Below the pieces are notes generated by a model. It did no database searches, was not told the origin of the DNA, and saw only the letters and a list, made by a program, of their open reading frames with translations. Below, one piece after another: positions 63 to 18,833 of a stretch of DNA of 64,000 nucleotides. Made by a program: the position numbers and the translations under genes. Source of the stretch: Streptomyces qinzhouensis (GTDB lineage: Bacteria > Actinomycetota > Actinomycetes > Streptomycetales > Streptomycetaceae); the NCBI RefSeq assembly GCF_007856155.1, contig NZ_CP042266.1, positions 6,820,001 through 6,884,000 of the forward strand, in the 5' to 3' direction. Within the stretch, counting starts at the first letter, position 1, and every line of letters begins with the position of its first letter.

Positions 63-2108
63 TCAGGGGAACAGCCAGAGCCTGTCCACCCAGGCGATCT
101 GGATGAAGCGCCCCTTCTCTGCGAGCCAGGGGTAGGGGGTGCGGAACCGCGTTAGGTTCTCCATCGATACCACCGGTGCGTTGAGTTGCCCCGCGACGTT
201 GAGTACCGCATGCGAGGACGTCGAGGAAACGGCGATTACGTTCCCTTGGGCGATGGCCTGGTCCAGTAGGTCCCGTTCGTGGTGCTCGACCGCCTCGGAC
301 ACATCCGTGCCGATGACCGTGACAATGCGCCGGTTAGGGAAGCGCTGTCCGATCACTGCGAGTGCGGAGGTGAGCAGCCTATAGCTTGGCGGTCGCCGTG
401 ATGCAGGGGTGCGCCCTGCCGTCATGACTCCTCTGCCGTCGACGACGAGAGCCGCAGTAGCCGGCCTGGGTTCTTCCACCTGTGGTTCGGCGTCCGTCTG
501 GGCCCCACCGGCCTTCCTCGCGTTGCTGTCGGAAGCAGGCTCTGTGATCCGTCGGAGCAGCCGTTCCAGCTCACGGTCGAGGCCCTGCTCGATGGGCGTT
601 CCGTCGGGTCCGAAGCAGTCGAGTTCCTCGTTGAGGATCTCGCAGCCCCCGTGCCGCAGAACGGCTCGGATCTTGAGGATTCCATCGCGGTCGTACCGGT
701 AGTCGACGTCGAAGAGATTGGCTGAGGGATCGGCCGCGGGCTGGGGTACGGGCAGTTCGATCCGTGCGAGCGGGAACGTGCGCTCGTCATCGGCGGCACG
801 AGCGCTGTCGCCCTCGACGATTTCAAGGACGACTCTTGATGCACCGCGAACGGCGGGCATTGCACTGCGGCTGCCGCGTGCGGGCAGGGTGGAGTAGCGC
901 GGGATCAACGTGGCGAATCCGCGACGGCCCCCAGCCTGGAAGGCGAGCCCCAGATCATGGCTGGCGGCCACCGAGATGGTGGTCCCCGGGACCAGGCCGT
1001 CGATCTCGGCTGCTGTGATCGCGGCTCCGCGGGCGACTGCCGTCATGGGGTTGCATAGACGCGCGTCGACGACATCCCGGACCAGTGCCGCCTCGACCTC
1101 GCGCCGGACCATCGGGATCTGCGAAGTTCCACCGATCATCAGCACGGCGTCGAGCGCGCCGGGGGAGAGCCCCACGTCGTTGAGGCACTCCTCCAACGGC
1201 ACTAGAGCTCGCCGTACAAGAGGTTCGACGGCCTGCTCGAACTCCTCGCAGTGGATGACCACCGCTCGGCCGCCGCCGGGCGGCTCGAACAGGACCTCCG
1301 TGGTCCCTGGCTGGGACAGTGCGATCTTGGTGAGCTCTACATGACGGCGCCAGCGAAAAGCTTCGGCGCGCGTGAGGTGCTCAGGCCTCGTACCGAGCTT
1401 GGGCAGCACGAGCCTCACCAGCGCCTCGTCGAATTCGAGTCCGCCGAGGGCCGTGATCCCTCGTGAGGCGATCTCGTCGAAAATGCCGTCGTAGTGCTCG
1501 AGAACCGTGATGTCGATGGTGCCGCCGCCCCAGTCGAAGACGAGGAAGCATCCTTCGCCGGGGTACTCGTGGGCGTAGCTGATGGCCGCCGCGGTGGGCT
1601 CGTTGATGAGCGCCTTCACCTTGATGCCGGCCAGGCGGGCCGCGGCCCGGGTGCGGTAGCGGGCCGCGCCGGTCGCATTGGCGGGGACAGTGACGACGGC
1701 CTCGTCCATCTCCCGAAGATTACGGCGGACCCCGGCCCGCATCTGGTCGAACAGGGAAGCCGCTACCGTCGTACTCCGATAGGGCTCGTCGCCCAGCCAG
1801 ACGTTGTGTTCTTCCGGCACTGACAGGCGCGCGCCCTCGTCTTCTTCGGAGGAGGCCCTCGGCCTGGAAGCGAGCATGCGCTTCACCGCGTCCTGTGGTG
1901 TATTCGTACTGCACTTCGCGGCCCATCCGAAGCACAGCGTTCGCTGCACGTCGCGAATAGAAACCACTGAGGGGAACAGCTCGTCGAAGCCAGGGCGGTT
2001 CCACTCGGCGGGCAGGCCCCCGCTGTCCACCCGGATCACCTCAGTGCCGTGCCCCGTCCAGCGTGCGACGACCGAGTTGCTGGTGCCGAAGTCGATCCCG
2101 AACGTCAT
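63..2108 (-). CDS. Hsp70-family ATPase with an extra C-terminal NYN-like domain
   Basis: A 681-residue DnaK/Hsp70-type protein. The actin-like ATPase fold is visible: phosphate-1 loop IDFGTSNS (residues 5-12), VVTVPAN near 138, phosphate-2 loop FDWGGGTIDIT near 190, and the adenosine motif MIGGTSQIPMVRREVE near 325. A beta-rich segment resembling a reduced substrate-binding domain follows to about residue 500, then an acidic linker. The last 130 residues do not belong to Hsp70: they start with a strand ending VVDGRG, continue with alternating helices and strands (IVTVIGTD, NVIAVSS) and APVVSMENL, a pattern like Zc3h12a/NYN ribonucleases, although the later acidic residues of that family are not clearly kept. 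The start codon overlaps the previous gene's stop by 4 nt (ATGA), so translation is probably coupled. It is the last gene of the operon. The Hsp70 call is secure; the C-terminal domain call is inference. Confidence 0.93.
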   Translation of the reverse strand: MTFGIDFGTSNSVVARWTGHGTEVIRVDSGGLPAEWNRPGFDELFPSVVSIRDVQRTLCFGWAAKCSTNTPQDAVKRMLASRPRASSEEDEGARLSVPEEHNVWLGDEPYRSTTVAASLFDQMRAGVRRNLREMDEAVVTVPANATGAARYRTRAAARLAGIKVKALINEPTAAAISYAHEYPGEGCFLVFDWGGGTIDITVLEHYDGIFDEIASRGITALGGLEFDEALVRLVLPKLGTRPEHLTRAEAFRWRRHVELTKIALSQPGTTEVLFEPPGGGRAVVIHCEEFEQAVEPLVRRALVPLEECLNDVGLSPGALDAVLMIGGTSQIPMVRREVEAALVRDVVDARLCNPMTAVARGAAITAAEIDGLVPGTTISVAASHDLGLAFQAGGRRGFATLIPRYSTLPARGSRSAMPAVRGASRVVLEIVEGDSARAADDERTFPLARIELPVPQPAADPSANLFDVDYRYDRDGILKIRAVLRHGGCEILNEELDCFGPDGTPIEQGLDRELERLLRRITEPASDSNARKAGGAQTDAEPQVEEPRPATAALVVDGRGVMTAGRTPASRRPPSYRLLTSALAVIGQRFPNRRIVTVIGTDVSEAVEHHERDLLDQAIAQGNVIAVSSTSSHAVLNVAGQLNAPVVSMENLTRFRTPYPWLAEKGRFIQIAWVDRLWLFP

Positions 2109-2893
2109 CCTCTGCCCTTCGACTCGCCAGTGTCATCTGCCGGCAGCCGCCGTACGGCGCCACGCTGGACAACGCGGCCGGTCACCGTCTCGACGTACGC
2201 TGGCGACAGAACCTCGTAGCTGGCCGCGTGGCTGTGTTCCTGCGAGTCGACGACGTCGAACGGCGTCAGGTTGGTTGGCGTCGTCAGGCGAGTGAGTCCC
2301 GCCCGCTTCATCTCGGCGTCGACGCGCAGGCGCACGGCTTCGATGTCGTCGGTGCCCCATGCGGTGCGATCGATGAGCGCGAGTTGCGCGAGCTGCTGGT
2401 CGCGGACGCGAGTGGCGTCGAGCACAGCGGTCCTCAGGGTGTCGTCCACCGCTGCCTGGACAGCTTGACGCACCAGTGTGCCCACCTTGTCGGCGGTGGA
2501 CATGGCCACGCGGATGGCGTCGTCGAGCTCTTCGGTGAGCTTGCGGGACAGCTCCTGTGATGCTTTCAGTCCGGCCCTGGAGGCTGCCTTGTCCACCTGA
2601 GAGGCCAACTTCACGGTCAACTTCTCGAAGAGCGCGCCGGGGTCGGCGAGCGCGTTGCCCACCACGGGAGCATGTCCGTCGTGTTCCTCCGCAACGTCAA
2701 GGTCCCGATTCCTGACGGTCTGCTGCGTGGCCGTGTCCGTCCTGGCGTCGGATCCGGCTTGTCGGCCCGACGACCGGGGCTGTTTACCCTGCGCCTTCGG
2801 CTGGTCCCGGGCGCCACCGGGCCTGGAACGGGAGCGCACTCCCTGGAACTCGGGGATGGAGTTGAGAGGTTGCCTCTTGTTTCTGCTGCCCAT
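2105..2893 (-). CDS. Coiled-coil protein with GrpE-like C-terminus, Hsp70 partner candidate
   Basis: A 262-residue protein with three parts: a basic, disordered N-terminus (about 1-85), a long amphipathic helix (about 95-190, rich in KLTEELDDAI-type heptads), and a small beta C-terminus. That C-terminus reads LTPFDVVDSQEHSHA, then YEVLSPAYVE, then TGRVVQRGAVRRL. This resembles the end of GrpE, where PFDP..HEAV is followed by EVLQPGYRL and GRVLRPA. Long helix plus beta wing is the architecture of Hsp70 nucleotide-exchange factors, and the gene sits directly before an Hsp70 gene with a 4-nt overlap. I infer a dedicated exchange factor; it may only mimic GrpE. Its own start overlaps the upstream stop by 1 nt (TGATG). 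Confidence 0.8.
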   Translation of the reverse strand: MGSRNKRQPLNSIPEFQGVRSRSRPGGARDQPKAQGKQPRSSGRQAGSDARTDTATQQTVRNRDLDVAEEHDGHAPVVGNALADPGALFEKLTVKLASQVDKAASRAGLKASQELSRKLTEELDDAIRVAMSTADKVGTLVRQAVQAAVDDTLRTAVLDATRVRDQQLAQLALIDRTAWGTDDIEAVRLRVDAEMKRAGLTRLTTPTNLTPFDVVDSQEHSHAASYEVLSPAYVETVTGRVVQRGAVRRLPADDTGESKGRG

Positions 2894-4656
2894 CAGTGGT
2901 CTTCCCTCATGATTCTGCCGCGGCTGACGATGTCCCGAGCCGCTTCGGACGCGGTCCAGTTCCGTTCTTCGGACGTACTTGGGTCCGTGCGGCGTTCCAA
3001 GGGGCGTATCCGCGGTTGGAGAACAGGTGAGTGGACGCGCGGGATCCGCAGGAACTGTTCGTCCAGGGGAAGCTCGTACAGAATCTCAGCCTCCCTGCCC
3101 ATTCGCCCGGCCATCTCGCGTCGCTGGACTCGATCCTTGGCGTTGTTGATGTACTCCAACTGCTCGGCGGGGACTTGACCGCGCAGATTTCGCCAGCCGT
3201 GGCGCCACTCAGACGAACCGTGCTCGACGGAGAGGGCCAGATACGGGTTGAGGACGTCGTGAGGTCTCGACTTCTGTCGCAGAGCCTGCAGCAGATCGCT
3301 GAGTACGATCATGCGTCGGCGAGCCTGAGGGTCCACGCCTCCGCGACGCCGAGTACCGCGCCTGAGTACCTCTTCCAGGAGCCCGACAGCTCGGTCCAGT
3401 CTGTCCCGGTCTCCCGGACGAGCAGTCAGGAAGTAGACATACGCCAACACCGCGCGTGCTTCCCGGCCCGCTTTGCCGGCTCCTGCTCCCTCTTTCTCGT
3501 TGCGTAGAGCGATCGCCTGCTCCACCACGCTGCGCAGGACGTCCGGTGCAATGTCGGGTTCAGCTGCCATGGCCCAATGAGCCTCGTCGAGTAGCCGGTA
3601 CAGGCGTCGCGTGCCGGCCCAGTAGTGGAACTTGGACGAGCCGGACACCAAACGACCATTCGGGAGACAGTCCTCCAGTAGGAAGAACAGTCCCGGTTCT
3701 TGTCCCAGCTCAGGTCCCACGGCAGCTCCGCGGCGTACGGCCTGAAGCGAGCGGACCAGCCGGGACAGATCCGGTGGGAAATGCGTGTCGCTGAGTGGCC
3801 CTACCTGGTCGAGCGCATTGACGTCACCGTTGAGCAGCGCCGCACGCAGACTCCACTCGTCGTGCCGCCCATCGACCGGAAGGACCTCGGCCCCCTCCAT
3901 CACGGCGCGCCGTCGCAGCTCACTCGTCCATGCGAGGGCCTTGACGTCGGAGGCGCCGAGTGCGCCCGGCGACAGGCGGGCCGTTACATAGCGGGAGCGG
4001 TCGTCGTGGTCCGGCCAGCTGGCCAAGTCGGCCCGTGCATCGAGCCTCCCGGAGTCGATGAGGTCGTCTACAACGGCCAGTGGGAGCTTATGCACGAGGC
4101 GGCGCCACGCACCTTTGGAGAGGACGGCACGGGTACCCGCCTCGTGAGCCTCGAGGAGCAGCTGCCATGAGTCCAGCTCGGAGGGATCCACCGGGGGAGC
4201 GGGAAGGCGGCCGGTGAGAATTGCCTCGGCCCGCAGGGATTCGTCGTCGCTGAAGACAGGCATCCCTGCCGTTGTGAGATCGGCAAGATGTGCGAGGGCG
4301 CCGAGGGGCGGGAATGCGGCGGAGATGCTTTCCCGTACGGCGTTGGCGACGTACTCCATCGGATCGCTCAAGCCGCCGGCTCGCATGAGTACGTCGTGGA
4401 ACATGTCCGCGGCCCCGGCCTCTCCGCCAACACGATCCAGGACGGTGACGAGGCGCGCGGGCAGCACCAGCGGTGCCGGCGGGGCATCCGGTGTAGCACC
4501 TGCCACGCCGAGATCGCCGGGATTGACTGCTCTGCGACGAGCCCGAAGAGCAGGTATCTCGCCTCTCTCCCGGGCGAGCCGTCGCTGTCGGCGCTTCTCC
4601 CGCTCAATCTGGCGAAGCTCCTCGGCACTGGCCTCGTTAACAGACTCCAACGACAT
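2893..4656 (-). CDS. Helical protein of unknown function in the Hsp70/sacsin operon
   Basis: I do not recognise a family. From the chosen start the protein has 587 residues. It opens with a strongly charged helix (EELRQIEREKRRQRRLARER), then a long, mostly alpha-helical body with Leu/Ala/Arg-rich helices. Residues around 380-490 look like helical (TPR-like) repeats (AVGLLEEVLRRG, LSDLLQALRQK). It has no signal peptide and no membrane segments. The reading frame stays open to an ATG at 4755, but the ATG at 4656 has GGGGAG nine bases upstream, so I prefer it. Its stop overlaps the start of the GrpE-like gene. By position it could be the adaptor or substrate receptor of the chaperone set. Confidence 0.75.
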   Translation of the reverse strand: MSLESVNEASAEELRQIEREKRRQRRLARERGEIPALRARRRAVNPGDLGVAGATPDAPPAPLVLPARLVTVLDRVGGEAGAADMFHDVLMRAGGLSDPMEYVANAVRESISAAFPPLGALAHLADLTTAGMPVFSDDESLRAEAILTGRLPAPPVDPSELDSWQLLLEAHEAGTRAVLSKGAWRRLVHKLPLAVVDDLIDSGRLDARADLASWPDHDDRSRYVTARLSPGALGASDVKALAWTSELRRRAVMEGAEVLPVDGRHDEWSLRAALLNGDVNALDQVGPLSDTHFPPDLSRLVRSLQAVRRGAAVGPELGQEPGLFFLLEDCLPNGRLVSGSSKFHYWAGTRRLYRLLDEAHWAMAAEPDIAPDVLRSVVEQAIALRNEKEGAGAGKAGREARAVLAYVYFLTARPGDRDRLDRAVGLLEEVLRRGTRRRGGVDPQARRRMIVLSDLLQALRQKSRPHDVLNPYLALSVEHGSSEWRHGWRNLRGQVPAEQLEYINNAKDRVQRREMAGRMGREAEILYELPLDEQFLRIPRVHSPVLQPRIRPLERRTDPSTSEERNWTASEAARDIVSRGRIMREDH

Positions 4657-4700
4657 TTGATGTGTCTCCCCGGCGAATACGACCTGTAACCAGCCCCATG

Positions 4701-4919
4701 TCACAGGTGTTTCGATTCGGATCGTATGCCAGGTTGGAGGGCCCGGTGTAGCCATTCCAAAAGGTCGTCACCGAAGGGTTTTGGGCTGGCTGCCCATGTC
4801 GGTGGGAGGCCGATTGCGTACAGCCTCTGGGGGGCTACGGCAACATCGGGAGCTGCCATCTCGATCCGTGTACCCCGCCCGCAGGCAAGCTGACTGCGGG
4901 CGGGGTGAGATCTGCTCAC
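4701..4919 (-). CDS. Possible small protein overlapping the sacsin-like gene stop
   Basis: A 72-codon frame whose GTG overlaps the upstream TGA (GTGA), the usual arrangement for coupled genes in this operon. It ends 44 bases before the preferred start of the next gene. The composition is weakly coding (third positions only moderately GC) and no family is recognised. It competes with the upstream-extended reading of the following gene, which starts at 4755, so at most one of the two is real in this interval. Confidence 0.3.
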   Translation of the reverse strand: MSRSHPARSQLACGRGTRIEMAAPDVAVAPQRLYAIGLPPTWAASPKPFGDDLLEWLHRALQPGIRSESKHL

Positions 4920-7900
4920 TCCTCAGCGGGCCACTCGTACAGTGTGGAGTCCACATCCGTGTCCCGGATGCTCTTGAGTCTGACGTGCGTCAGAGGCTCT
5001 ACTTCGAAGCGGTTCACAGGGTCGGTCACGAGGCGGAGGGTGGGGGCGCCGGTGCCCTCCTCCAGATGCGAGGCGATGACCAGGGTGTAGTTTTCCCCTT
5101 CGGATAGTGCCCGCACGAATTCGGCACGAGTAAGGGTCAGTTCTGGCGGGACGGCGCCGCCGTGGGCCTTGATCTCGTAGTAGCGCCCGGCCGAGTCAAA
5201 GGCATCCGCCCCAAGTCCCGAAACGCCACGCTGGTCCTCCAGTTCGATGCCCTGCTCCCGCAGGATCTGGCGTAGGGCTCGGATCACGAGCCGCTCCTTG
5301 TCCGAGTCCCGGTAGCCGAGCGGTGCGAACTGCTCTCGTGGCGAGGCGCCGCCGGGCCGGGGTTGGGGGAGTGAGGACGGCCGCCGTTTGCTTCCGCCGG
5401 GTCGTGCGGATCTCGAGCGGGACGACATACCCGGATGCAGTGGCGGAGTACCGGTCTGGGTGACTTTACGGGACCGCTTGTCGAATTCGGTCGCACCCAC
5501 GAGGTGGCGCACGGGTGCCAACTGTTCCGACTGCGGAGGTGGCGGCGGTGCGCTCGGCAGAGGTGCGGGTGGAGCGTCGGGAGCGGGGCGCGGCGCCGGT
5601 ACGCCGTTCGCGGGTCGTAGCGGCACGGGGCGTGATGCGGGGGCGGACGGCATCGGACGCGAGGGCGGTTTCTCCTGCTCCCGTCGGCGCAGCTGCTCGT
5701 CCAGCCGCTGACGGTCTTCTTGGTCCTGCTGCTTGGTCGAGCTGAGGGCGTCTTCGCGGACGGTCTCCACCAGGTCCTCCTCCCATACATCCCGCCATCG
5801 GTGCCCAACGCGGGTCCGCTCCGTGGCGAAATGGGAAGCGATCGCCGCCCCCGCACCACCCTTGGCGCTCAGTGCCTCGACGGACCGGATGAAGACGGTG
5901 GCCTGTTCGCGGTCGATCTGCGCGTTGATGGGGAGCTCGATCGGCTCGTGCCCGCCGCCCGGTTCCAGCCGGATCCGCAGCCCGGGATGGAGCCGTACCT
6001 CCAGGCCGGCCAGCCAAGTCCAGCCGGTGAAGTTCTCGGCTACCTCGGGCTCGTCACGGACAAGGAGGTCTTGGAGGGCGACGACGGCTCGGCGGAAGTC
6101 CTCAGTGAGAGTGCCGTCCGGCGACAGGTCCTGTCCTCCGACGACTTGCGCGCCGACGACGTCCAGCGGGGTGACCCGTAGCAGGCCGAGCAGCGAGGCG
6201 AACTGCTGGACGTCCCCTCCAGGTTTCCAAAGAGGCAGCCGTTCTGCGAGGGCGCGTTCGAGGCCGGAGTCGTCCACAGCGAAGACCGGCCTGGTCTTGG
6301 TCCACCCGGCCGTGGTCCACAGCGGCAGCGGGCGCAACTTGTTCCGCAGCCCGAGCTGGACCTGTCCGTCATTGGAGGCGACGCGGTCCCGCAGGCGTCG
6401 TAGGGCATTGAGCATCACCTGCTGCTGCCGGACATCAGGCGCGCTGCCGGCCTGCGCGATCTCCTTCAGCACGTCGGCAAGGTCCTCGGCGCCGGGCTCA
6501 CTGATGTCAAGCACCCGCCACAGTGGGTCAAGATCCGACCCGGTGAGCGCGAAGGGGCGGAACCCGCGCAAGACGACGGTACCTCGGAAGCATGCGTCCG
6601 ACGTCATCCAGCCTTGGTCGGTAAGTACGAGTTCTTCCCTCATGAACCCGTAGCGGATCTGCTTCTCGACCTCCGCGCGCGAGGTGTCGATCGAGCGCTC
6701 CGTCAGGCGTCTTGCCAGAGCCCGGTACACGAGCAACGCCTCGGCCCTGAGGGCGTCGCCGACCTCGACGTCACCTGGAGTGCGTTCACGGAGCTCGCGA
6801 AGCCGTTCCAAGAGTCGGGGGACGTCCGGATCGCCGGAGACGCCGAGGGCCGTGAGGACGTCGGCGCGGGTCGCCAGGGCTTGATGGATGGCGGAGTGGA
6901 GGTAGCCGGGGTTGTCGTGCCCGTAGAGGGCTTCGGCGTCCGGGGTGCGCAGCTGGAGTCTGGTCGGGGTGCGCAGGTCGCCGTCGGCGTCCTCCAGCCA
7001 GGCAGTGTCCCGCAGCTGCCACACCCACATGGCCGACGTCTCGCCCTTGACGATCCACTTGCGGTCTGCCCATGCCATCGAAACCCGCGCCTGGTCGGGA
7101 CTGGTGACCGGACCGGCAAGCGTACGCAGCAGCGCGGCCGTTCGTCGGCGTCGCTCCTCTACGTTTCGCTCGGCCACGATGTTAGCCACGACGGCGACGA
7201 GATCGGCGCTGATCAGGTCATCGAGGGTGAAGTTGGCGGCTTTCTCGCTCATCGCGCGCCAGCGATCCGGGCTGCTCCACATACAGTCACGTGCCAGGCC
7301 GAGGCGTGAGTCCGCCGAGTACTGCTTGAAGTAGGAGTGGTGGTATTGACGGCGTGGTACCGGTGTCAGCCGGGGTGTGTCCGCTACGCCGAGCAGTTTG
7401 AGGAAGGCCGTCCTGCTCAGGCCGTTGCTCTGCGCGGCGGAGAGCAAAGATCGCGCATAGGAGCGGTGCACCCAGACGAGCCCGGGCGTCTTGCGGGCCG
7501 CCACTGCGAACCGGTCTCCGTCGGCACTCTCCAGCGTCGAGGAGAGGTAGGCGGCGCGGGGCTGCACTCTGGCGGGATTTTCGTTGCCCTGGTCATCGAA
7601 CATGAAGCCGTTCAGCCGGATGGCCCGCCCGATGTCCGGCCCGAGTTCGTCCCTTAGCTTCTTCGGTACCTCACCAAGTGCCCGCTGCAGTGACGTAAGG
7701 CGAGCGATCTCCTCAGTCTCTCCGGCATCGGGCAGGTGCCCGCCTGACTCGCCGAGCCGAGCGACGAGCCTCAGCACGGCAGCCGTGTCGTCCCGCCGGA
7801 CCAGCCATTCCTGCCTCCGCAGCCAGTCGACCACCCTCTTCGACCACTGGTTCTCCTCCCAGTAGGCAGAGTGCAGATCGAGCACGACACCCAGGTGGTC

Positions 7901-9517
7901 CAGCACCCCCGTGGTCTTGCCACTTCGCTCCGCGAACGCGTGCTTGTCGGCTGATGGGCGCAGCGGACGTCCGTCGGCCGTGATCACGCACGGCTTGCGC
8001 GCCAACGCGTAGGCATGGCCGACTTCCACGGCGACCGCGGCGAGCCGGATGACCCGTGTGACATCACGGTCTGCCTCGTCGAAGAGGCTGAGCGCATCAG
8101 TGACACGGACCTCTGGGCGCAGGTCCGCCGCCCCCGCCGAGCGCCAGTCCGCGAGCACCCCACGCCAGCGGTCGGCCCGGTCGCGGGAGGCAGCGGGAAA
8201 GGCGTACTGGGCGCCGGACAACCGGGTGATGTCCGCATCGTCAAGCACGCCCGACAAGGCGGCCTCTTCAGCAGCGAACTCGGCCAAGGGTGCCGCGGGC
8301 CCGCCGTCCGCGACCGGCAAGGTGAGCCCCGAGGCGAGCGACTGCCTGGCGCGTGAATGGAGTGCCGCCCGCATCGTGTCCTGCAGCCGGTCTGGTGAGG
8401 CGGCCCCGGCTGTGGAGGGTAGGGGAATGAGGTGCCAGGCAGCCGGGTCCACTCGTCCGAGTACGTCGTGGACAGCGGCCTCCCATAGGTCGGCGACCAA
8501 GGGGACGAGCTGCTGGTTCAGGCGACTGTCGGCGAAGCCCTCGCGGCTGGCGACGGGGTCGAACTGGGCGTGGACGCGGGCAGCCGCGTTCAGCGGTGCG
8601 ACCGGCAGGCCGGCATGGACGCTGCCGTGCACCTGGGGCTGCAAAGGGAGCGCCACGGCGACCGGCATCGTCGTCCCAACGGCCTTGTGGTGGCGCTCCC
8701 AGCCGGGGCGCGGCGGCACCTGGGCTTCGTACACCCGCCAGACCGCGCCGTCACTCGCCGTGGCGTGTCGCACCAGCACGTCAGTGTCCGCGCCGCCGAC
8801 CGGGACCCGGTGTCGTGCCGCTTCCTCCCAGGACAGGGCCAATACAGTAGTGCGCTTGCCGTCCGAGACTTCGAGTCGTTTGAGGTGCCGCAGGAAGAGC
8901 AGCGAGGCATCGCTCCAGCTCTCGAACCATTCGAAGAGATCGGAGGCGGGCAGCGCGTCCGACTCCAGAGGGATACGGAAGACCGTCCATTGGGGCCCGG
9001 AGATCTCTTCTGGTAGTTCCGGCGGAGCGACTGGTTCCAGGGCGAGATCGGCGAACCGCACGTGGAAGGGATGGCAGTGGACTTCCCATGTCGTTGCCAG
9101 TGCCCTGAGCGTTGACAGCCCGATGCCGAAACGGCCCGTGCTCTGAGCGTCGGCGGTCTTGCCACTGAGCCAGGGCATACCGAGGAGTAGGACATCGCCC
9201 ATGCGCACGCTGACGCCGTCGTGGGCGATCAGCAGCGCGTCTGGATGCCACAGGAAACGCAGCTGGCTGGCCCTCGCATCGTTGGCGTTCTGTACGAACT
9301 CGGAGAGCACCTGGAGCGGGTCTGACGATAGAGTCTCGGAGCCCCGCTGAGCGCCCTCGGCCATTCTGCGGAAGACCCCCGGTCCTTCGCGCAGCCCCTG
9401 GTCGAGGAGGCGTACTGCGTGTGCTGCCTCCTCGGTACCGGACACCTCCAGCTCTGGATCCACGCGCGGATCGTCCAAAAGCCTGCGCGCCGCCGACGTG
9501 AGCGCCTCATGGTCCAC
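4916..9517 (-). CDS. Sacsin/Hsp90-type ATPase with C-terminal NO VEIN-like (DUF3883) domain
   Basis: A 1533-residue protein from a GTG start preceded by GGGGGAG; longer readings lack such a site. Residues about 55-200 form a GHKL (Hsp90/sacsin) ATP-binding module: N-box LSEFVQNANDA, then LIAHDGVSV, then the lid motif STGRFGIGLS. A long middle region of over 1000 residues has no motif I can name, as usual for sacsin-like proteins. A proline-rich linker (about 1290-1370) leads to a C-terminal domain of about 140 residues resembling the NO VEIN C-terminus, with ADAFDSAGRYYEIKAHG. The spaced D and E-x-K there fit a PD-(D/E)xK nuclease core. It is the first gene of the operon ending in the GrpE-like and Hsp70 genes. 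The family combination is typical of bacterial genomic islands; the biochemical role is unknown. Confidence 0.88.
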   Translation of the reverse strand: MDHEALTSAARRLLDDPRVDPELEVSGTEEAAHAVRLLDQGLREGPGVFRRMAEGAQRGSETLSSDPLQVLSEFVQNANDARASQLRFLWHPDALLIAHDGVSVRMGDVLLLGMPWLSGKTADAQSTGRFGIGLSTLRALATTWEVHCHPFHVRFADLALEPVAPPELPEEISGPQWTVFRIPLESDALPASDLFEWFESWSDASLLFLRHLKRLEVSDGKRTTVLALSWEEAARHRVPVGGADTDVLVRHATASDGAVWRVYEAQVPPRPGWERHHKAVGTTMPVAVALPLQPQVHGSVHAGLPVAPLNAAARVHAQFDPVASREGFADSRLNQQLVPLVADLWEAAVHDVLGRVDPAAWHLIPLPSTAGAASPDRLQDTMRAALHSRARQSLASGLTLPVADGGPAAPLAEFAAEEAALSGVLDDADITRLSGAQYAFPAASRDRADRWRGVLADWRSAGAADLRPEVRVTDALSLFDEADRDVTRVIRLAAVAVEVGHAYALARKPCVITADGRPLRPSADKHAFAERSGKTTGVLDHLGVVLDLHSAYWEENQWSKRVVDWLRRQEWLVRRDDTAAVLRLVARLGESGGHLPDAGETEEIARLTSLQRALGEVPKKLRDELGPDIGRAIRLNGFMFDDQGNENPARVQPRAAYLSSTLESADGDRFAVAARKTPGLVWVHRSYARSLLSAAQSNGLSRTAFLKLLGVADTPRLTPVPRRQYHHSYFKQYSADSRLGLARDCMWSSPDRWRAMSEKAANFTLDDLISADLVAVVANIVAERNVEERRRRTAALLRTLAGPVTSPDQARVSMAWADRKWIVKGETSAMWVWQLRDTAWLEDADGDLRTPTRLQLRTPDAEALYGHDNPGYLHSAIHQALATRADVLTALGVSGDPDVPRLLERLRELRERTPGDVEVGDALRAEALLVYRALARRLTERSIDTSRAEVEKQIRYGFMREELVLTDQGWMTSDACFRGTVVLRGFRPFALTGSDLDPLWRVLDISEPGAEDLADVLKEIAQAGSAPDVRQQQVMLNALRRLRDRVASNDGQVQLGLRNKLRPLPLWTTAGWTKTRPVFAVDDSGLERALAERLPLWKPGGDVQQFASLLGLLRVTPLDVVGAQVVGGQDLSPDGTLTEDFRRAVVALQDLLVRDEPEVAENFTGWTWLAGLEVRLHPGLRIRLEPGGGHEPIELPINAQIDREQATVFIRSVEALSAKGGAGAAIASHFATERTRVGHRWRDVWEEDLVETVREDALSSTKQQDQEDRQRLDEQLRRREQEKPPSRPMPSAPASRPVPLRPANGVPAPRPAPDAPPAPLPSAPPPPPQSEQLAPVRHLVGATEFDKRSRKVTQTGTPPLHPGMSSRSRSARPGGSKRRPSSLPQPRPGGASPREQFAPLGYRDSDKERLVIRALRQILREQGIELEDQRGVSGLGADAFDSAGRYYEIKAHGGAVPPELTLTRAEFVRALSEGENYTLVIASHLEEGTGAPTLRLVTDPVNRFEVEPLTHVRLKSIRDTDVDSTLYEWPAEE

Positions 9518-10187
9518 GCTCGTCTCCCCCCTGTATGCCGTATGCAGGCGACAATCCTCAGGCGTGGCGTGGCCTCTCCGATCAACAACCTCCGTGATTC
9601 CGCCAACCTCCGGCCGCCTCCCCGAAGTGTCCCCGCCCGGGCCGTTGCCCGCGCTGGGGCGAGCACATCCGGTGACCAGCGTGTGAGCCCCTCTGCACCT
9701 GGGCTTGAACGCGGCGGAAACTTTTTGGCTCCCCTGCTGGTTGTCAGACCCGACTGCTAGAGCGCGTCTCTTCCAGGGGATCGTCAGTTGATCGGTGTCG
9801 GCGATCACCCGCAGGGAGCGGCGTGGCGACTACTGCACGCAGGCCCGACCCGGGGCCCGCGCCTGCGGTGGTCGACCGCCATCGAGTGACGGGACGGCTC
9901 CACCACGATGACCAGCCCGGCCCGTGCCACCTGTCGCATCACGGTTTCAGGTCGCCCGTGGGAGTGAGAAGCGTCATAAACGAGCCGAGTGGGCGTCCGG
10001 CTCGGCTGGGGGAGTGGGCTGAAAGCCAGGGCGTGCGCGGCCCGCCCAGTCGGCCCGAACCTCCCGAGTGGCGCCTTGGAATGACGATTGGTTGGGGACC
10101 AGTGTCGCTGCACGCAGGTGCACGGCACGCACATTGATGCACGTTCCACGCGGTCAAATAGCGCCACACGTCCTGATTGCGGGCCCG
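9518..10187. other. Leader region of the chaperone operon; no clear gene
   Basis: About 670 bp between the sacsin-like start and the tRNA-Pro remnant. It should contain the operon promoter, but I could not identify convincing -35/-10 boxes. A minus-strand frame around 9805-9990 has coding-like third positions (it includes RLVYDASHSHG and MRQVARAGLVIVVE) but no recognised family; it may be a gene fragment trapped at the element boundary. A perfect palindrome, GCGGGCCCGC, lies at 10180-10189, right at the edge of the tRNA match. Confidence 0.4.
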
Positions 10188-10230
10188 CTGGGGGTCAAGG
10201 GGTCGCAGGTTCAAATCCTGTCATCCCGAC
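10188..10230 (+). other. 3' half of tRNA-Pro(GGG): attachment-site core
   Basis: The sequence matches a proline tRNA from the anticodon loop (CTGGGGG, anticodon GGG) through the anticodon-stem 3' strand TCAAG, the T arm (GCAGG TTCAAAT CCTGT) and the acceptor 3' strand CATCCCG plus A and C. The 5' half (acceptor, D arm, anticodon 5' stem) is missing: the bases upstream do not pair. A tRNA 3' half beside a tyrosine integrase is the hallmark of an att site left by tRNA-targeting integrative elements; pSAM2-type elements are known to use tRNA-Pro. The intact tRNA should lie outside the window. Confidence 0.85.
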
Positions 10231-10251
10231 CGTGCGGAAACGCAGGTCGGA

Positions 10252-13081: not shown

Positions 13082-15640
13082 TTGCAGCCCAGACGTATCT
13101 CCGCTCTCCCCCGAGCGTTACGCCGTTCCCCTCTGCTCATCGCCTTTGCCCTCGGCTCGTTGCTCGTCGGGGCCACGCCATGGATCGGCGTGGCGAGTAC
13201 CGGGCCGGGCGGCGGCCCCGACGGGGCAGCGCTCCGGCCGGCGTCCGCACCAGTCGGCCAGCAGGCGGCGAAGGCGTCGCCGCACCATGCCGTGGCCCCG
13301 GCGAACGCCATGGAGCCCGCGGCTCCGCTACTCGACCGGACCGGATGGACCGTCACGGCGAGCGATGAGGAGACCGCCGCCGAGAACGGCCGCGCGGCCA
13401 ACGTCCTCGACGGCAACGCGGCCACCATCTGGCACAGCAGGTATGCCGGCACCTCGGCCCCGCTGCCGCACAGCATCACCATCGACATGAACCGCACGGC
13501 GGTCGTCTCCGGCCTCGTCTACCTGCCCCGCAACGACGGCCCCAACGGGCGCGTCGGCGAGTACAGCATCAGCATGAGCGCGGACGGGCAGAACTGGGGC
13601 AGTCCCGTCGCCACCGGCACCCTCGCGGACGACGCCGCCGCCAAGACCCTCGGATTCGCCCCGACGGGCGCCCGGTTCGTCCGCCTCACCGCCGTCACCG
13701 AGGCCGGCAACCGCGGCCCGTGGACCACCGCCGCCGAGCTCAACCTGCTCGGCGACCCGGGAACCCCGGCCGCCACCGTCGACCTGCCCCGCACCGGATG
13801 GACGGCCACGGCGAGCGATGAGGAGACCGCCGCCGAGAACGGCCGCGCGGCCAACGTCCTCGACGGCAACGCGGCCACCATCTGGCACAGCAGGTATGCC
13901 GGCACCTCGGCCCCGCTGCCGCACAGCATCACCATCGACATGAACCGCACGACGGCCGTCTCCGCCCTCGTCTACCAGCCCCGCAACGACGGCCCCAACG
14001 GGCGCGCGGGCGCGTACACCGTAACCACCAGCACCGACGGGACCACCTTCGGCACCCCGGTCGCGACGGGCACCTGGCGCGACGACGACACCGTCAAGAC
14101 CGCCACCTTCACCCGCACCGCGACCGCCCGCTACGTACGCCTGACCGCGACCGGCGAGGCCGGCAACCGCGGGCCCTGGACCACGGCCGCCGAGATACGC
14201 CTGAGCGGACCGGCCAACCCGGCCACCCACGGCGCCTGGGACCGGATCACCGGATTCCCCCTCGTACCGGTGGCCACCGCCGTCCTGCCCGGCGACAAGC
14301 TCCTGGCCTGGTCGGCGTACGCGGTCGACCGCTTCGGCGGCAGCAACGGCTACACCCAGACCGCGATCCTCGACCTGAAGACGGGCAAGGTCACCCAGCG
14401 CCGCGTCGACAACACCGGCCACGACATGTTCTGCCCGGGCATCGCGATGCTCGCCGACGGCCGGGTCCTGGTCACCGGCGGCAGCAACGCGGAGAAGGCC
14501 AGCATCTACAACCCGGCCACCGACACCTGGTCCGCGACCACCAACATGAACATCGCCCGCGGCTACCAGTCGATGACCCTGCTCTCCACCGGCGAGGCCT
14601 TCGTCCTCGGCGGGTCCTGGAGCGGAGCCGCGGGTGACAAGGCCGGCGAGGTCTGGTCCCCGAACACCTCCACCTGGCGCAAGCTCCCCGGCGTCCCGGC
14701 CACTTCGACCATGACCGCCGACCCAGCCGGCCCCTACCGTGCCGACAACCACATGTGGCTGTACGCCACTTCGGGCGGCAAGGTGCTCCAACTCGGCCCG
14801 AGTAAGCAGATGAACTGGATCACCACCGCCGGGAACGGCAGCATCACCCCGGCCGGCCCCCGCGCCGACAGCCAGGACGCCATGACCGGCAACGCCGTCG
14901 CGTACGACATCGACAAACTGCTCACCCTGGGCGGCTCACCCGCGTACGACAACGTGCCCGCCACCCGGCGCGCGTACACCGTGAGCATCAACGGCGGCCA
15001 GGTCCAGGCCGCGCGTACGGGCGACATGGACCAGGCCCGCGCCTTCGCCAACAGCGTCGTCATGCCCGACGGCAAGGTCGCCGTCTTCGGCGGCCAGTCG
15101 TACCCCGTGCCGTTCAGCGACGCCACCTCCGTGCTGACCCCCGAACTGTGGGACCCGGCGACCGGCAGCTTCACCCCGCTCGCCACCATGGCCATCCCGC
15201 GGAACTACCACAGCGTGGCGAACCTGCTGCCCGACGGCCGGATCTTCTCCGGCGGCGGCGGCCTCTGCGGCGACTGCGCCACCAACCACGCCGACGGAGC
15301 CGTGTTCACCCCGCCGTACCTGCTCAACGCGGACGGCTCACCCAAACCGCGTCCCGCCATCACCGGCGGCGTACCGTCCCAGGCCCCCGCGGGCACCTCG
15401 CTCACGGTCACCACCGGCGGGCCGGTGGCCTCCTTCGTGCTGATGCGGGCGGCGGCCGCGACCCACTCCACCGACAACGACCAGCGGCGCGTCCCCCTGA
15501 CCTCCACCCCCGCGGGCGCCAACACCCATACGGTCTCCATCCCGGCCGACAGGGGCGTCGTCCTCCCCGGCACCTACATGCTCTTCGCCCTCAACGCCCA
15601 AGGAGTCCCCAGCACCGCCCGCTTCATCACCATCCCCTGA
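13082..15640 (+). CDS. Secreted galactose oxidase-like copper radical oxidase with two discoidin domains
   Basis: An 852-residue exported enzyme. A TTG start directly after AGGAGGTCCGA gives a basic N-terminus and a hydrophobic signal segment (LLIAFALGSLLVGA). Two F5/8-type C (discoidin, CBM32-like) domains occupy about 85-230 and 235-382, then a kelch propeller, then an Ig-like DUF1929 end. The galactose oxidase cofactor is intact: Cys451 (HDMFCPGI) and Tyr495 (ARGYQSM), 44 residues apart as in the Fusarium enzyme (Cys228/Tyr272); Trp in GGSWSG; Tyr-His in IPRNYHS; His in THSTDNDQRR. Such enzymes oxidise primary alcohols, often sugars, to aldehydes with release of H2O2; GlxA-type relatives act in Streptomyces cell-surface glycan handling, but this one has extra sugar-binding domains and lies alone. 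A strong hairpin follows the stop. Confidence 0.93.
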   Translation: MQPRRISALPRALRRSPLLIAFALGSLLVGATPWIGVASTGPGGGPDGAALRPASAPVGQQAAKASPHHAVAPANAMEPAAPLLDRTGWTVTASDEETAAENGRAANVLDGNAATIWHSRYAGTSAPLPHSITIDMNRTAVVSGLVYLPRNDGPNGRVGEYSISMSADGQNWGSPVATGTLADDAAAKTLGFAPTGARFVRLTAVTEAGNRGPWTTAAELNLLGDPGTPAATVDLPRTGWTATASDEETAAENGRAANVLDGNAATIWHSRYAGTSAPLPHSITIDMNRTTAVSALVYQPRNDGPNGRAGAYTVTTSTDGTTFGTPVATGTWRDDDTVKTATFTRTATARYVRLTATGEAGNRGPWTTAAEIRLSGPANPATHGAWDRITGFPLVPVATAVLPGDKLLAWSAYAVDRFGGSNGYTQTAILDLKTGKVTQRRVDNTGHDMFCPGIAMLADGRVLVTGGSNAEKASIYNPATDTWSATTNMNIARGYQSMTLLSTGEAFVLGGSWSGAAGDKAGEVWSPNTSTWRKLPGVPATSTMTADPAGPYRADNHMWLYATSGGKVLQLGPSKQMNWITTAGNGSITPAGPRADSQDAMTGNAVAYDIDKLLTLGGSPAYDNVPATRRAYTVSINGGQVQAARTGDMDQARAFANSVVMPDGKVAVFGGQSYPVPFSDATSVLTPELWDPATGSFTPLATMAIPRNYHSVANLLPDGRIFSGGGGLCGDCATNHADGAVFTPPYLLNADGSPKPRPAITGGVPSQAPAGTSLTVTTGGPVASFVLMRAAAATHSTDNDQRRVPLTSTPAGANTHTVSIPADRGVVLPGTYMLFALNAQGVPSTARFITIP
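13340..13497 (+). repeat. Discoidin DNA repeat, copy A (158 bp)
   Basis: This segment recurs at 13793-13950 with only two base differences near its start. The rest of the two discoidin domains differs much more. Identity at silent positions means recent duplication or gene conversion limited to this segment. Confidence 0.95.
13793..13950 (+). repeat. Discoidin DNA repeat, copy B (158 bp)
   Basis: Second copy of the 158-bp block, 453 bp (151 codons) downstream of copy A and in the same frame. Both encode the stretch starting ASDEETAAENGRAANVLDG. Confidence 0.95.
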
Positions 15641-15673
15641 CCCCCACCACTCCCGACCACCACCTGAAACCCC

Positions 15674-15706
15674 CTCGCCCCGCCCCGTCACCGGGGCAGG
15701 GGCGAG
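15674..15706 (+). terminator. Strong GC hairpin after the oxidase gene
   Basis: CTCGCCCC pairs with GGGGCGAG and the inner GCCCCG with CGGGGC, leaving a small loop, 33 bases after the stop codon. There is no T-run, which is common for Streptomyces terminators. Confidence 0.75.
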
Positions 15707-15796
15707 CCCACCCCCGCGTGCGCGGGGACCATGGTCCGGGTCGTGACCACGCCGAGGTGATCAGGGGGGGGCCATCCCCGCCTGCGCGCGGGGTGC
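15706..15796. repeat. Pair of CRISPR-repeat-like palindromes (doubtful)
   Basis: Two imperfect copies of a palindromic unit, CCCCGCGTGCGCGGGG-like at 15706-15730 and CCCCGCCTGCGCGCGGGG-like at 15771-15796, resemble type I-E repeats of actinomycetes. They are separated by about 40 bases, so the period is about 65 rather than the usual 61. Only two units exist and no cas gene is nearby. It may be a decayed array end or a chance pair of GC hairpins. Confidence 0.25.
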
Positions 15797-15878
15797 GTGC
15801 CGTGCAGGGAATCCCGTCGCCCGTCGCGCCCGTTCTCCCGTACGACCGGGATCAGGGCGAGCGTACCGGCGGGATTCC

Positions 15879-16092
15879 TCAGGCGCCGGAGGCGGATTCG
15901 GGGGAGGTGCCGGCATCGCGCCGGGCGGGCAGGCTGTCGGCGAATGCGGAGGCCTGGACCAGATAGGCGGCCCGGAAGTCTCCGGTGGCGGCGGTCTCGC
16001 CCATCAGCTCCGGGAAGCTGCCGGCCTCGGCCACCTGCCCATCCTTCATCACGTGGATGAGGTCCGCATGGCGTACGGAGTGGAGGCGGTGG
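15879..16092 (-). pseudogene. ABC transporter ATPase fragment (3' exon behind a group II intron)
   Basis: About 70 codons correspond to the C-terminal end of an ABC ATPase: the H-loop HRLHSVRHADLIHVMKDGQ, then VAEAGSFPELM, the standard pattern of multidrug and peptide exporters, ending with a short variable tail. Everything upstream (Walker A, signature motif, Walker B, membrane domain) is missing. The homology starts exactly where the group II intron 3' end stops, so the intron had inserted in the H-loop codons and the 5' exon was later lost. Confidence 0.75.
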
Positions 16093-16374
16093 GTCGGGTA
16101 GCCGGGGCTCATTGCTGAACCCCGGCCCCCTAAGAACCGGGCGAGCCTGTTTCCAGGCACCTCGGCTCAAGCAGTCCCGAGGACTTGAAGGAGTTCCTGC
16201 ACCGTGCTCAGGTAGAGCGTGATCACGGCTGTGACAATCAGCGTGCACGAGGCGTAGATTGTTCATGTTGTCACACCATCCATCTTTCCTGTACACGAGA
16301 AAGTGGTGTTTGTGTAGCCGCTTTCTCGTGGCATCGAACCAGGCGATCCATTCGCGGACGTTGTCTGGGCCAGT
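16093..16374 (-). mobile_element. 3' end of a group II intron (HNH domain, domains V and VI)
   Basis: On the minus strand this block first encodes the HNH end of an intron maturase (NMNNLRLVHADCHSRDHA after HKHHF). Then comes a classical domain V at 16168-16134, with GAGCCG and CGGTTC pairing at the base, a GAAA tetraloop and the AGC triad. A domain VI-like hairpin follows and the 3' terminus is CTACCCGAC at 16093. The reverse transcriptase, maturase X domain and 5' intron half are absent, replaced by the serine-protease 5' region that begins at 16388. The fragment cannot splice on its own. Confidence 0.8.
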
Positions 16375-16387
16375 AGTCCACCCACCA

Positions 16388-16802
16388 CCAGCCCCAGCGC
16401 CGGAGCCCCCGCCATCAGCACCCGCCGCAAGCACCACGACTGCACAGTCGTTCGCCCTTCCGACTCGGAACATCACGTCCCTGCCAGACCTTCCCGCCGC
16501 CCCCGGCTACACCCTCCTACCGTTGACACCACCCCAGTGGACGCGCACTCAAGCGGACATTCCCGTGTCACTGCCCAATGGGGGCGGACGAGACGGTCGA
16601 CTTCGGTGCGGGTCGTGTTGCGGCGTGCGTCACGGACGGCGGTGGAGTCGCCGTAGGCGAGGCCGGGATGGTGCGGAGGTGGGCGATGCCGAGCGCGGCG
16701 CCGAGCTGCCGTCGCGCCTCCGGCGGCAGCCGGGAAGGGGCGGACTGACCGGGCGGGAGCGTGGCCACCAGCGCAGTCAATCTGGGGACCACTCGGGGAC
16801 CA
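16388..16802 (-). repeat. Degenerate serine-protease 5' region, copy 1
   Basis: This 415-bp stretch matches 40317-40718 at high but imperfect identity with small indels. Read on the minus strand it consists of an upstream region and the start of an exported protein (a GTG followed by a signal-like RRVLMAGAPALGLVVGG). Copy 2 continues into a trypsin-like sequence; this copy is cut after the signal segment by the group II intron fragment. It is a gene-family scar, not a mobile element that I can name. Confidence 0.75.
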
Positions 16803-16906
16803 CACGATGTGCGCGGTAGCGCACGTCAGGCACCCGTAGGCATTGCATGCGCCTAGCTTAAGCATGCTATGTCCTGAAAATGCCTCCACCCCTCACTCCT
16901 AGAGTC

Positions 16907-17755
16907 ATGGCCGTGACCACCGAACCCCAATCGAGCGAGGCATTGAAGCACTTTCTGAACACACTGCGGGCCGGCGAAGTCCGCACCGGGTGCGTCATCA
17001 GGGTCGAAGACCGAGAGGCACTCGTCGAACTGGACGGGTTCCCCGGTCCCGGAAAGGCGCTGGGACGCATCCCTCGTGGCGATCTGACCCGTAAGGCCAT
17101 CGGGCATCCGTCCGAAGCCGTGAGCGTCGGGCAGCAGCTCACCTTCGAGGTGATAGCCGTCGACTAGCAGCAGGAGTGCGTCTGGGCCTCTGCTTCAGCG
17201 TGTGAGGACCCGGCTCTGCGAGCGTTTCTCCTTGGCCTTGGGCGAGGTGCAACCCATGAGGGGCGAGTGCAGAGCGTCCATAACTTCGGTGTGTTCGTGA
17301 ACCTCGACGGCGAACCGGATGATCAGTGCACTGGGTTCATCAGAGGTCCCGAACTGAGCTGGCGGCGGATCGACCATCCCGCGGACGCCGTCACGGCCGG
17401 CCAGCGGGTCGTCGGCGAGATCATCGACATAGACACCCGTCGTGGACAGGTCCAGCTGTCGCTGAAAGCTCTCCAAGTGGACCCGCTCGTTCCCTTCACG
17501 GACCAGGCAGGCATGGTCACGACCGGGCAGGTCACCAAGCTAATCCCGTTCGGAGCCTTCGTCCGCGTCGCCGACGGCGTCGAGGGCCTCGTACACAACA
17601 CCGAATTCCGTGACGAGCCCGTCGAGCACCCCGGCCAGATCGTGAGCGAGGGCGACGAGATCACCGTACGGATCGCCGAGGTCGACCTCGTACGCCGCCG
17701 CCTCACCCTGTCCGCCGGAAATCTGCCGAGAAACGGGAAACGATCTCTCCTGTGA
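16907..17755 (+). pseudogene. S1 RNA-binding domain protein interrupted by one amber codon
   Basis: One continuous frame of 283 codons encodes three S1-like (OB-fold) domains: about residues 20-85 (GCVIRVEDREALVELDG), 110-190 (GRVQSVHNFGVFVNLDG to GQVQLSLKAL) and 200-270 (GQVTKLIPFGAFVRVADGVEGLVH to RRRLTLSAG). A single TAG at 17165-17167 interrupts it after the first domain; codons on both sides stay in frame and look coding (ACEDPALRAFLLGL). Unless TAG is read through or is a sequencing error, this is a recent nonsense mutation. A restart is possible at the GTG/ATG codons near 17267. Intact homologues would bind RNA and may be linked to ribosomes. Confidence 0.8.
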
Positions 17756-17763
17756 CGGCCTGC

Positions 17764-18378
17764 TCAGGCAGTCGCTTCACCTCTGATGCTGACGATACGG
17801 TCGGGCCGGCCGAGCCCGCTGGTCTGGATCCAACCCCGACCGTGTACGTGACCAGCATCGATCAGGCCCTTTGCTTGCCCCGACGGAGCCAGCGTCTGGT
17901 TGTAGCTCTGGACCAGCCCCTCCTCGGTGTCCGCGAACAAATAGCGGGTCGCGTAGACCTGGCCGCTGTGTTCCCACTCGTGGCGGACAATCGGCTTCCG
18001 CAAGAGTGCCTCGAACCATCTGGCGGCGCGTTCAGCCAGTTCCTGCGGTGACCCGACCGCCTCCATCGCAAGGCTCGTCGGCTGGTCCGGGAGGAAATAG
18101 AGCTGATTGTGGAGGCGGTCGCCGCGGACGCTGGAACCAACCAGGTGCACACCGATATCGATCAGCGACACCCTGCGGTGCCTATCGCTCAGCCCCACGA
18201 AGGCCAGGAGTGATGAATCGTCCTCTGGACGACCGACCCAGCTGTGGGCATAAGGGACATCCCATGAGCTGGCCTGCTCGCGGAGAGCTGTCGAGAAGGC
18301 GAGCTCGGCAGCATCGAAGCCGAACTCATCGTCAGGGTCATCTATCTCGAACCACGGATTCCCAAGCACGATGATCAC
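17764..18378 (-). CDS. Hypothetical protein
   Basis: A 204-residue soluble protein I do not recognise. It starts with GTG and MIIVLGNPWFEID, has an acidic N-terminus, an alternating strand pattern (VSLIDIGVHLVGSSVRGDRLHNQLYF, read in parts) and a helix-rich centre (SPQELAERAARWFEALLRKPIVRHEW), and ends with VHGRGWIQTSGL. It has no signal or membrane segments. It is convergent with the broken S1 gene, with eight bases between the stops. Codon use is typical for the genome, so it is probably functional. Confidence 0.7.
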   Translation of the reverse strand: MIIVLGNPWFEIDDPDDEFGFDAAELAFSTALREQASSWDVPYAHSWVGRPEDDSSLLAFVGLSDRHRRVSLIDIGVHLVGSSVRGDRLHNQLYFLPDQPTSLAMEAVGSPQELAERAARWFEALLRKPIVRHEWEHSGQVYATRYLFADTEEGLVQSYNQTLAPSGQAKGLIDAGHVHGRGWIQTSGLGRPDRIVSIRGEATA

Positions 18379-18833
18379 AATAGAACAGGCGGTCGACAGT
18401 ATTCACCCGGTGCTGGGAAACGATCACGCGGGGAATGGGAAGCGATCTACGTACGGTCTCTGTCGGCACTGATCAGAGGTACTCGTGAACAGCCCAACCC
18501 CGACCCGACGATCCGGATCCGCGTCGCCCTGGCCTAGGACCCGGACCTGGCCCGCGATCACTTCGAGCGTGTCCTTCGAGAGGACCCCCTGGTCCCGTGG
18601 ATGACCGAAGCCCAGGAGAAGGCACGTGAGCTACACGCCATGGCGCCGGGATCGCGACGCCGTGACCGCCTGGGGCACCCGGGCCGTCGACTCATGCCGC
18701 AGCAAACGGGGCCTGGACCCTGACTCTCTCGCAATCACCGCAAGAAGCACACTCGTTCAGCGACAGAGCCGCGGTGTTTCGGAACCGCCCGGGTGTCTCA
18801 CAGAGCCCGATTCTGGCGATCAAGACTCTTCCT
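18379..18833. other. Region with possible gene fragments
   Basis: About 455 bp. A plus-strand frame from about 18490 to 18645 reads like coding sequence (RIRVALA, a TAG at 18535, then DPDLARDHFERVLRE and EAQEKARELHAMAP), suggesting a decayed gene. A second start at 18626 after AGGAGAAGG opens a 78-codon frame whose first half has coding-like third positions. Neither matches a family I know. Confidence 0.35.

Follow-up and report, generated by a model that had tools for sequence, protein, structure and literature searches.

Three adjacent genes in Streptomyces qinzhouensis encode a helical protein of 587 residues (P587), a nucleotide exchange factor of GrpE type and an Hsp70-family protein fused to an NYN domain. 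These genes form a unit, referred to below as the trio, whose large partner gene changes from locus to locus and which, in the DNA analyzed here, is carried by an element integrated at tRNA-Pro and has an NYN domain in decay. It is plausible, if short of probable, that the trio is a portable Hsp70 machine found near interchangeable large defense proteins, acting as a sensor or holdase.

Gene Organization

The stretch of DNA that was analyzed, hereafter the window, comprises 64,000 nucleotides starting at position 6,820,001 of the 8.15-Mb single-contig genome. Four genes on the minus strand lie across 9517..63, i.e., a TmtA-like gene (4916..9517, 1533 residues, GTG start), the P587 gene (2893..4656, 587 residues, where an alternative upstream ATG at 4755 would give 620 residues), the gene of the GrpE-type factor (2105..2893, 262 residues) and that of the Hsp70 with the NYN domain, Hsp70-NYN (63..2108, 681 residues). 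The P587 and GrpE-type genes overlap at TGATG, and the GrpE-type and Hsp70 genes at ATGA. The first-pass annotation of this DNA had described an operon of four to five overlapping genes; this description is accurate for the coupling of the last three, but there are four genes rather than five and the TmtA-like gene does not overlap the next one, from which it is separated by 259 nt that include a hairpin. This G+C-rich hairpin (4873..4905, strand not assigned), identified by eye, has a perfect 12-bp stem without a T-run and is absent from the output of the terminator scan, which gave two terminator-like sites, fewer than in shuffled sequences. A scan for sigma-70-type promoters found none, with 0.6 expected, and no conserved regulatory element is visible upstream of the trio beyond the close copies. 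The sequence identity with one related locus (L003) stops at window position 4842, between TmtA and P587, which indicates that the trio carries its own leader; this leader is kept where TmtA is absent.

Separation of the Trio from TmtA

The analysis covers ten loci, all found through P587, namely the window, L001-L007, L020 and L021, of which three (the window, L001 and L002) are near-copies. The order P587, GrpE-type factor, Hsp70-NYN is seen in each of the seven loci from the contig scan (L001-L007) and also in the two distant loci, L020 and L021, where P587 is 32% and 30% identical, respectively, to that of the window, i.e., in ten of ten loci in total. The hosts are mostly Streptomyces; L020 is from a Carbonactinospora and L021 from the window's own genus. 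With the window counted, the ATGA overlap is kept in all ten loci and the TGATG overlap in nine, L021 having a 49-nt gap instead. Among the 49 P587 homologues found, 24 are paired with an Hsp70-NYN match on what is apparently the same contig.

TmtA adjoins the trio in three of the ten loci only (the window, L001 and L002), on the same strand and in the same order, and the L001 and L002 proteins are 93-94% identical to that of the window. In a set of 61 genomes, P587 was found in four (the window's own, one with apparently the same contig as L006, and those of L020 and L021), TmtA in five, own genome included, using the first 500 residues as query, and the two together in one, which is the window's own. 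The trio is absent from the flanks of all eight other distinct TmtA loci examined. These were drawn from five of six plasmid matches, of which two are fragments, and from four stretches of the 61 genomes, one of which duplicates a plasmid record. Because the trio and TmtA separate across loci and genomes, an obligate four-gene system was rejected. The initial proposal of one such system is thus not supported, with the trio lacking TmtA in seven of ten loci and TmtA lacking the trio in eight of eight; the expected co-occurrence was found for three of the genes (10/10 loci) but not for the sacsin-type gene (both present in 1/61 genomes). The accompanying statement that no described system has this set of genes likewise stands for these three, which were not matched in this way, whereas the sacsin-type gene matches TmtA of PADLOC at 1409 bits. 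In a literature search, no title or abstract among the matches listed describes the trio, most subscription journals being outside the scope of the search.

Broken or partial TmtA genes were observed on Streptomyces plasmids (L087:9001-10984 and L088:9001-10049), one of them adjoining an annotated cas2e, and a second, fragmentary TmtA-like match is present in genome G018. Carriage of the trio on plasmids or phages was also considered and rejected; a tblastn search with P587 covered 72,556 records of plasmids and 50,697 of phages without a match, and none of 23 candidate stretches from a scan of viral contigs was confirmed.

The TmtA-like Protein

Residues 3-1529 of the 1533-residue protein align with positions 10-1480 of 1486 of the PADLOC profile PDLC03968 (TmtA) at 1408.9 bits, i.e., over the full length. 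The N-terminal part contains a sacsin/GHKL ATP-binding segment (residues 69-147, 9077..9313, minus strand), for which NF047352 scores above its cut-off and PF25794 below. In an alignment with six relatives the motifs EFVQNANDA, HDG and GRFGIG are present, which we take to be the N, G1 and G2 motifs of the GHKL family. A NO VEIN/DUF3883-like domain is found near the C-terminus (residues 1408-1485, 5063..5296, minus strand); its match to PF13020 (E 0.0015) is sub-threshold at 19 bits, the cut-off being 22.1. The GAD...ExK pattern of this domain is kept in seven of seven aligned TmtA proteins, and the DUF3883-type site looks intact. The combination of a GHKL ATPase and a DUF3883-like domain noted at first reading is therefore confirmed, above the cut-off at the N-terminus and below the Pfam cut-off at the C-terminus. 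A sequence search against solved structures gave nothing for TmtA. From the PADLOC naming, TmtA is presumably Tiamat, a known defense family that consists of a single gene. DUF3883 has been described as a novel restriction endonuclease domain (PMC3710099). Tiamat has been counted with the systems that are enriched in Actinobacteria, its mechanism being given there as not known (PMC10482375).

Integrative Element and Attachment Site

The block composed of TmtA and the trio is carried as cargo by an integrative element located in tRNA-Pro(GGG). An attachment (att) site, consisting of the 3' end of tRNA-Pro(GGG), is located at ~10186..10231 (plus strand) and forms the right boundary of the block common to the window and L001, which bears out the tRNA attachment site proposed earlier; ARAGORN found no whole tRNA in the window. 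The identity to L001 extends from 6,819,982 to 6,830,230, one base before the end of the att fragment, and that to L002 continues for 80 bases beyond the identity to L001. In L002, an intact tRNA-Pro(GGG) is found beside an integrase, and its 3' end is repeated at the opposite end of the element; the stretch from att to tRNA contains no sizeable genes other than TmtA, the trio and the integrase. The same 3' fragment is present in the window at 10208-10231. Intact tRNA-Pro(GGG) genes in the window's genome are located at ~6,766,450 and ~7,153,630.

A tyrosine integrase gene (PF00589; 10262..11578, minus strand) lies beyond the att site as seen from the block. Its product is 77% identical to the L002 integrase, which lies directly beside the intact tRNA-Pro, and the 20 kb that precede the block on its left contain no relative of it. 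Because the integrase gene is located outside the block, it probably belongs to a neighboring, tandem element. To the left of the window (6,800,001-6,820,000), several tyrosine-recombinase-like open reading frames, one transposase-like frame and one SUKH/SMI1-like frame were recognized by eye from their translations, and the region from the tRNA-Pro at 6.766 Mb to the att site at 6.830 Mb may consist of stacked mobile elements.

Components of the Trio

The Hsp70 component has a clear ATPase domain (PF00012, 4.4e-58), and the nucleotide-binding motifs of DnaK are intact in an alignment with the DnaK of the same genome (GIDFGTSNS, VKRM, NEPTAAA, FDWGGGTID and GGTSQIP). The ATPase domain is followed by a beta substrate-binding domain and then, from residue ~490, by a linker and the NYN domain; as judged by alignment, the helical lid of DnaK is absent and the NYN domain occupies its place. 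Because of this arrangement, the protein is assigned to the Hsp70 family rather than called a canonical DnaK, and the additional domain recognized in the first reading turns out to be of NYN type. The genome also has its own canonical dnaK, grpE and dnaJ.

In the window, the domain is a degraded NYN/Zc3h12a-type domain (residues ~553-681, 66..452, minus strand) that was delineated by alignment with relatives, the region itself giving no Pfam hit. PF11977 is above its cut-off in the relatives L020, L021 and P0072, and not in P0053 or the window copy. The motifs VVDGSN, VVDAS, KAD/RGD and VSND, corresponding to a complete site, are kept in L020 and L021. The window's branch was examined in a census of 47 rows (the window and 46 homologues, one of them cut off short and several metagenomic) at the Asp and Asn positions, which we take to be the catalytic residues. 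The first Asp is kept in 46 rows; the Asn, the second Asp and the third Asp are found in none; Met takes the place of the next Asn in 46; and at the last position there are 16 Asp, 25 Glu, 5 other residues and 1 gap, i.e., 41 acidic residues. All 47 sequences have thus lost both Asn and two of the four acidic residues. The two nuclease-like domains postulated at first are present as folds (NYN and DUF3883-like), but much of the putative active site of the NYN domain is lost in the window copy. Because of this degradation, two active nucleases are doubtful here, the DUF3883-type site being the one that looks intact.

The 262-residue protein displays the layout of GrpE, i.e., a long helix, a short helix and a beta domain. 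In a Foldseek search, the best four of the matches listed are GrpE, at low TM-scores and with no match at E <= 0.001 among those listed; with VIA, GrpE accounts for six of the best seven matches listed, at modest scores. A profile-profile comparison with GrpE gave E 1.3e-4 at a probability of 54%, with 0.32 for the reversed control and 0 of 200 shuffles reaching this score. The earlier assignment as GrpE-like therefore holds. The protein has no Pfam hit up to E 1, PF01025 matches only the canonical grpE product in this genome, and a sequence search against solved structures gave noise only; because there is no sequence match to PF01025, we use the name GrpE-type rather than GrpE.

P587 is all-helical in an AlphaFold model with a mean pLDDT of 87 and contains a TPR-like region (residues ~313-464, 3265..3720, minus strand). 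This region is followed by a possible J-like segment (residues 468-518, 3103..3255, minus strand) that lacks the HPD motif and in which the model has helices at 471-474, 484-492 and 497-518. An alignment of this segment with 27 J domains using hhalign gave E 0.0012 (probability 20%, reversed control 0.41), a score that was reached by none of 300 column shuffles; the whole-length profile of P587 against J domains was not significant (E 0.069, reversed 0.12). No hit to the Pfam J domain (PF00226) was found in 42 P587 members, and none of the 19 sequences compared has HPD in the segment. Because of the missing motif, P587 is at best a J-like protein, and the assignment is weak. J-domain chains are not found among the listed matches of a VIA structure search with P587, which is not evidence against a J domain, and a distant profile search with P587 recovered a single protein from the 8000 candidates that were scored. 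The view of these genes as a chaperone machine is retained for the Hsp70, the GrpE-type factor and possibly a J-like protein, but not with the TmtA-like gene as a part of it.

Genes near the Trio

Within ~10 kb of the trio, a gene of PADLOC type or a STAND gene is present in all ten loci, as judged from scans of HMM libraries with selected large neighbors. The neighbors are TmtA in three loci (assigned by the PADLOC scan in the window and by the 93-94% identity in L001 and L002), a CHAT-NACHT-TPR gene in one, a full-length Type I-like methylase in three, a DruE-like helicase in two and a PDC-M07A-like ATPase in one. In L003, the CHAT-NACHT-TPR gene (15229-19128) follows immediately downstream of the trio and precedes another integrase, its att setting resembling that of TmtA in other loci. 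The methylases of L004-L006 match PDLC03037 at 881-897 bits; HsdM accompanies them in L004 and L005, and L004 and L006 have a DndB-like gene. HsdM and the DndB-like gene, together with a second methylase that has a specificity-like tail, possibly constitute a separate defense locus (L004:3444-9245, L005:4592-9131 and L006:63-3605) that is divergent from or upstream of the trio. The DruE-like DEAD/MZB helicases of L007 (2556-8927) and L020 (12962-18268), both near the trio, are 55% identical over 1,795 columns, and that of L007, from Streptomyces sp. Y2F8-2, is fused to a Ser/Thr kinase. The neighbor in L021 is an AAA ATPase that matches PDC-M07A at 159 bits.

In four arbitrary windows of the same genome used as a control, two of ten large open reading frames had a PADLOC match at 1e-10, both partial; because ten frames are too few, this control does not provide a background rate. 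The original guess of a defense role is supported as regards a probable defense setting, and the defense-type neighbors may reflect an island effect rather than function.

Interpretation

The replacement of the lid by NYN, the change of partner between loci and the recurrence of defense-type neighbors suggest that the trio is more than a spare chaperone. Considered together with the HSP70-GrpE theme of the GAP1-N2 systems and the precedent of bNACHT25 (see below), they lead us to favor a sensor or holdase module that would serve interchangeable outputs. According to this model, mobile elements or defense regions would carry the trio near a large defense protein, here TmtA. Clients would be recruited via the TPR-like surface of P587, the Hsp70 would be driven by the J-like segment of P587 and the machine would be reset by the GrpE-type factor. 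Upon infection, a phage would flood the machine with unfolded or nascent phage protein, perhaps translation complexes to which the decayed NYN domain would bind, and the machine would then release or load its partner, where it is a guess whether the partner is kept off or loaded. TmtA would subsequently open its clamp, driven by ATP, and its DUF3883-like domain would cut nucleic acid.

A somewhat unlikely alternative is that the trio is a stand-alone effector acting at the RNA level, where the Hsp70 brings an NYN RNase or its RNA-binding remnant to phage or stalled translation, the neighbors being separate systems. The above-cut-off PF11977 matches and retained NYN motifs of L020 and L021 are in line with this alternative, as is the prediction that CoCoNuTs bind RNA via Hsp70 homologues and keep inactivated nucleases for binding (PMC11090510). 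However, the loss of two acidic and both Asn positions throughout the window's branch argues against it; furthermore, the Hsp70 ATPase motifs look intact, while those of the CoCoNuT homologue CnuD are degenerate, and neither the GrpE-type factor nor P587 would be needed for mere RNA binding.

It is distinctly unlikely that the trio is a spare stress chaperone that hitch-hikes on mobile elements and is functionally unconnected to TmtA or the other neighbors. Such an origin would agree with the single genome of 61 that has both TmtA and P587, the absence of the trio from the eight other TmtA loci, the variable partners and the presence of dnaK, grpE and dnaJ elsewhere in the genome. It is more difficult to reconcile with a defense-type gene near the trio in every locus, the control being small, with the content of the L002 element, where TmtA, the trio and the integrase are the sizeable genes, and with the lidless, NYN-fused form of the Hsp70, for which a role in general protein folding is unlikely. 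The dedicated four-gene system of the first-pass annotation, in which the Hsp90-like TmtA and the Hsp70 machine would have to work together, is quite improbable. It would fit the window, L001 and L002, where a single element carries both on one strand and in the same order, as well as human sacsin, in which Hsp90-like modules are combined with a DnaJ domain (PMC3710099). The 259-nt gap with its hairpin, the loci that have the trio or TmtA alone, and the match of the gene to TmtA, a single-gene system, argue against it.

The reading as a portable Hsp70 machine may be taken one step further, to a possibility that we consider speculative and on the unlikely side, namely that the trio is a plug-in immune chaperone, i.e., a mobile, shared infection sensor rather than a folding chaperone. 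TmtA, Type I-like methylases, DruE-like helicases and NACHT proteins would then be interchangeable outputs, and the NYN domain would reflect an RNase ancestry, turned into a binding surface in one branch. A dedicated chaperone set found with Tiamat and other defense types offers a handle on the question of whether a private Hsp70 machine senses infection or holds an effector, and it connects NACHT sensing through DnaJ in bacteria with loci that have an Hsp70 machine of their own. The Hsp70 of the trio is also an example of a lid exchanged for a nuclease-type domain.

Comparison with Known Systems

The window shares with Tiamat the full-length match, the GHKL N-terminus and the NO VEIN/DUF3883-like C-terminus of the 1533-residue protein; the trio is not part of Tiamat. 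Like the genes considered here, sacsin, which in its human form contains a DnaJ domain, combines Hsp90-like modules, recruitment of Hsp70 and a nuclease-type domain, there HEPN (PMC3710099). However, the animal protein is one giant polypeptide, whereas here the genes are separate, the nuclease-type fold is different and the association is loose.

CoCoNuT systems of Type III contain Hsp70 homologues (CnuD/CnuCD), and Type I restriction-modification and Druantia Type III are named as CoCoNuT companions (PMC11090510). The likeness consists of an Hsp70-like domain in a restriction locus. In contrast to these systems, no McrB GTPase was recognized among the scanned neighbors of the trio, the Hsp70 motifs are intact in the trio while the Walker A-like motifs of CnuD are degenerate, and the term "GrpE" is absent from the main text of PMC11090510.

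Among published ideas, the closest to the present one concerns the GTPase-centered GAP1-N2 conflict systems with their HSP70-GrpE theme (PMC7159879, eLife 2020), the second theme of these systems, which is an actinobacterial set of HSP70, GrpE and a DnaJ-domain or TPR protein. The trio resembles this set in conflict loci, but no GAP1-N2 or FNIII gene was recognized among its selected large neighbors, an NYN fusion is not mentioned in the HSP70-GrpE section of that paper, and the partners are instead TmtA, Type I-like methylases, DruE-like helicases, CHAT-NACHT and a PDC-M07A-like ATPase. The nearest experiment is that on bNACHT25, which requires DnaJ for protection against phage and for which J-domain mutants that impair the DnaJ-DnaK cycle do not restore defense (PMC12169576). 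There, as proposed here, a defense NTPase operates via an Hsp70 cycle, and in L003 the trio adjoins a CHAT-NACHT-TPR gene. The chaperone used by bNACHT25 is the housekeeping one, whereas the trio is a dedicated set encoded in the locus.
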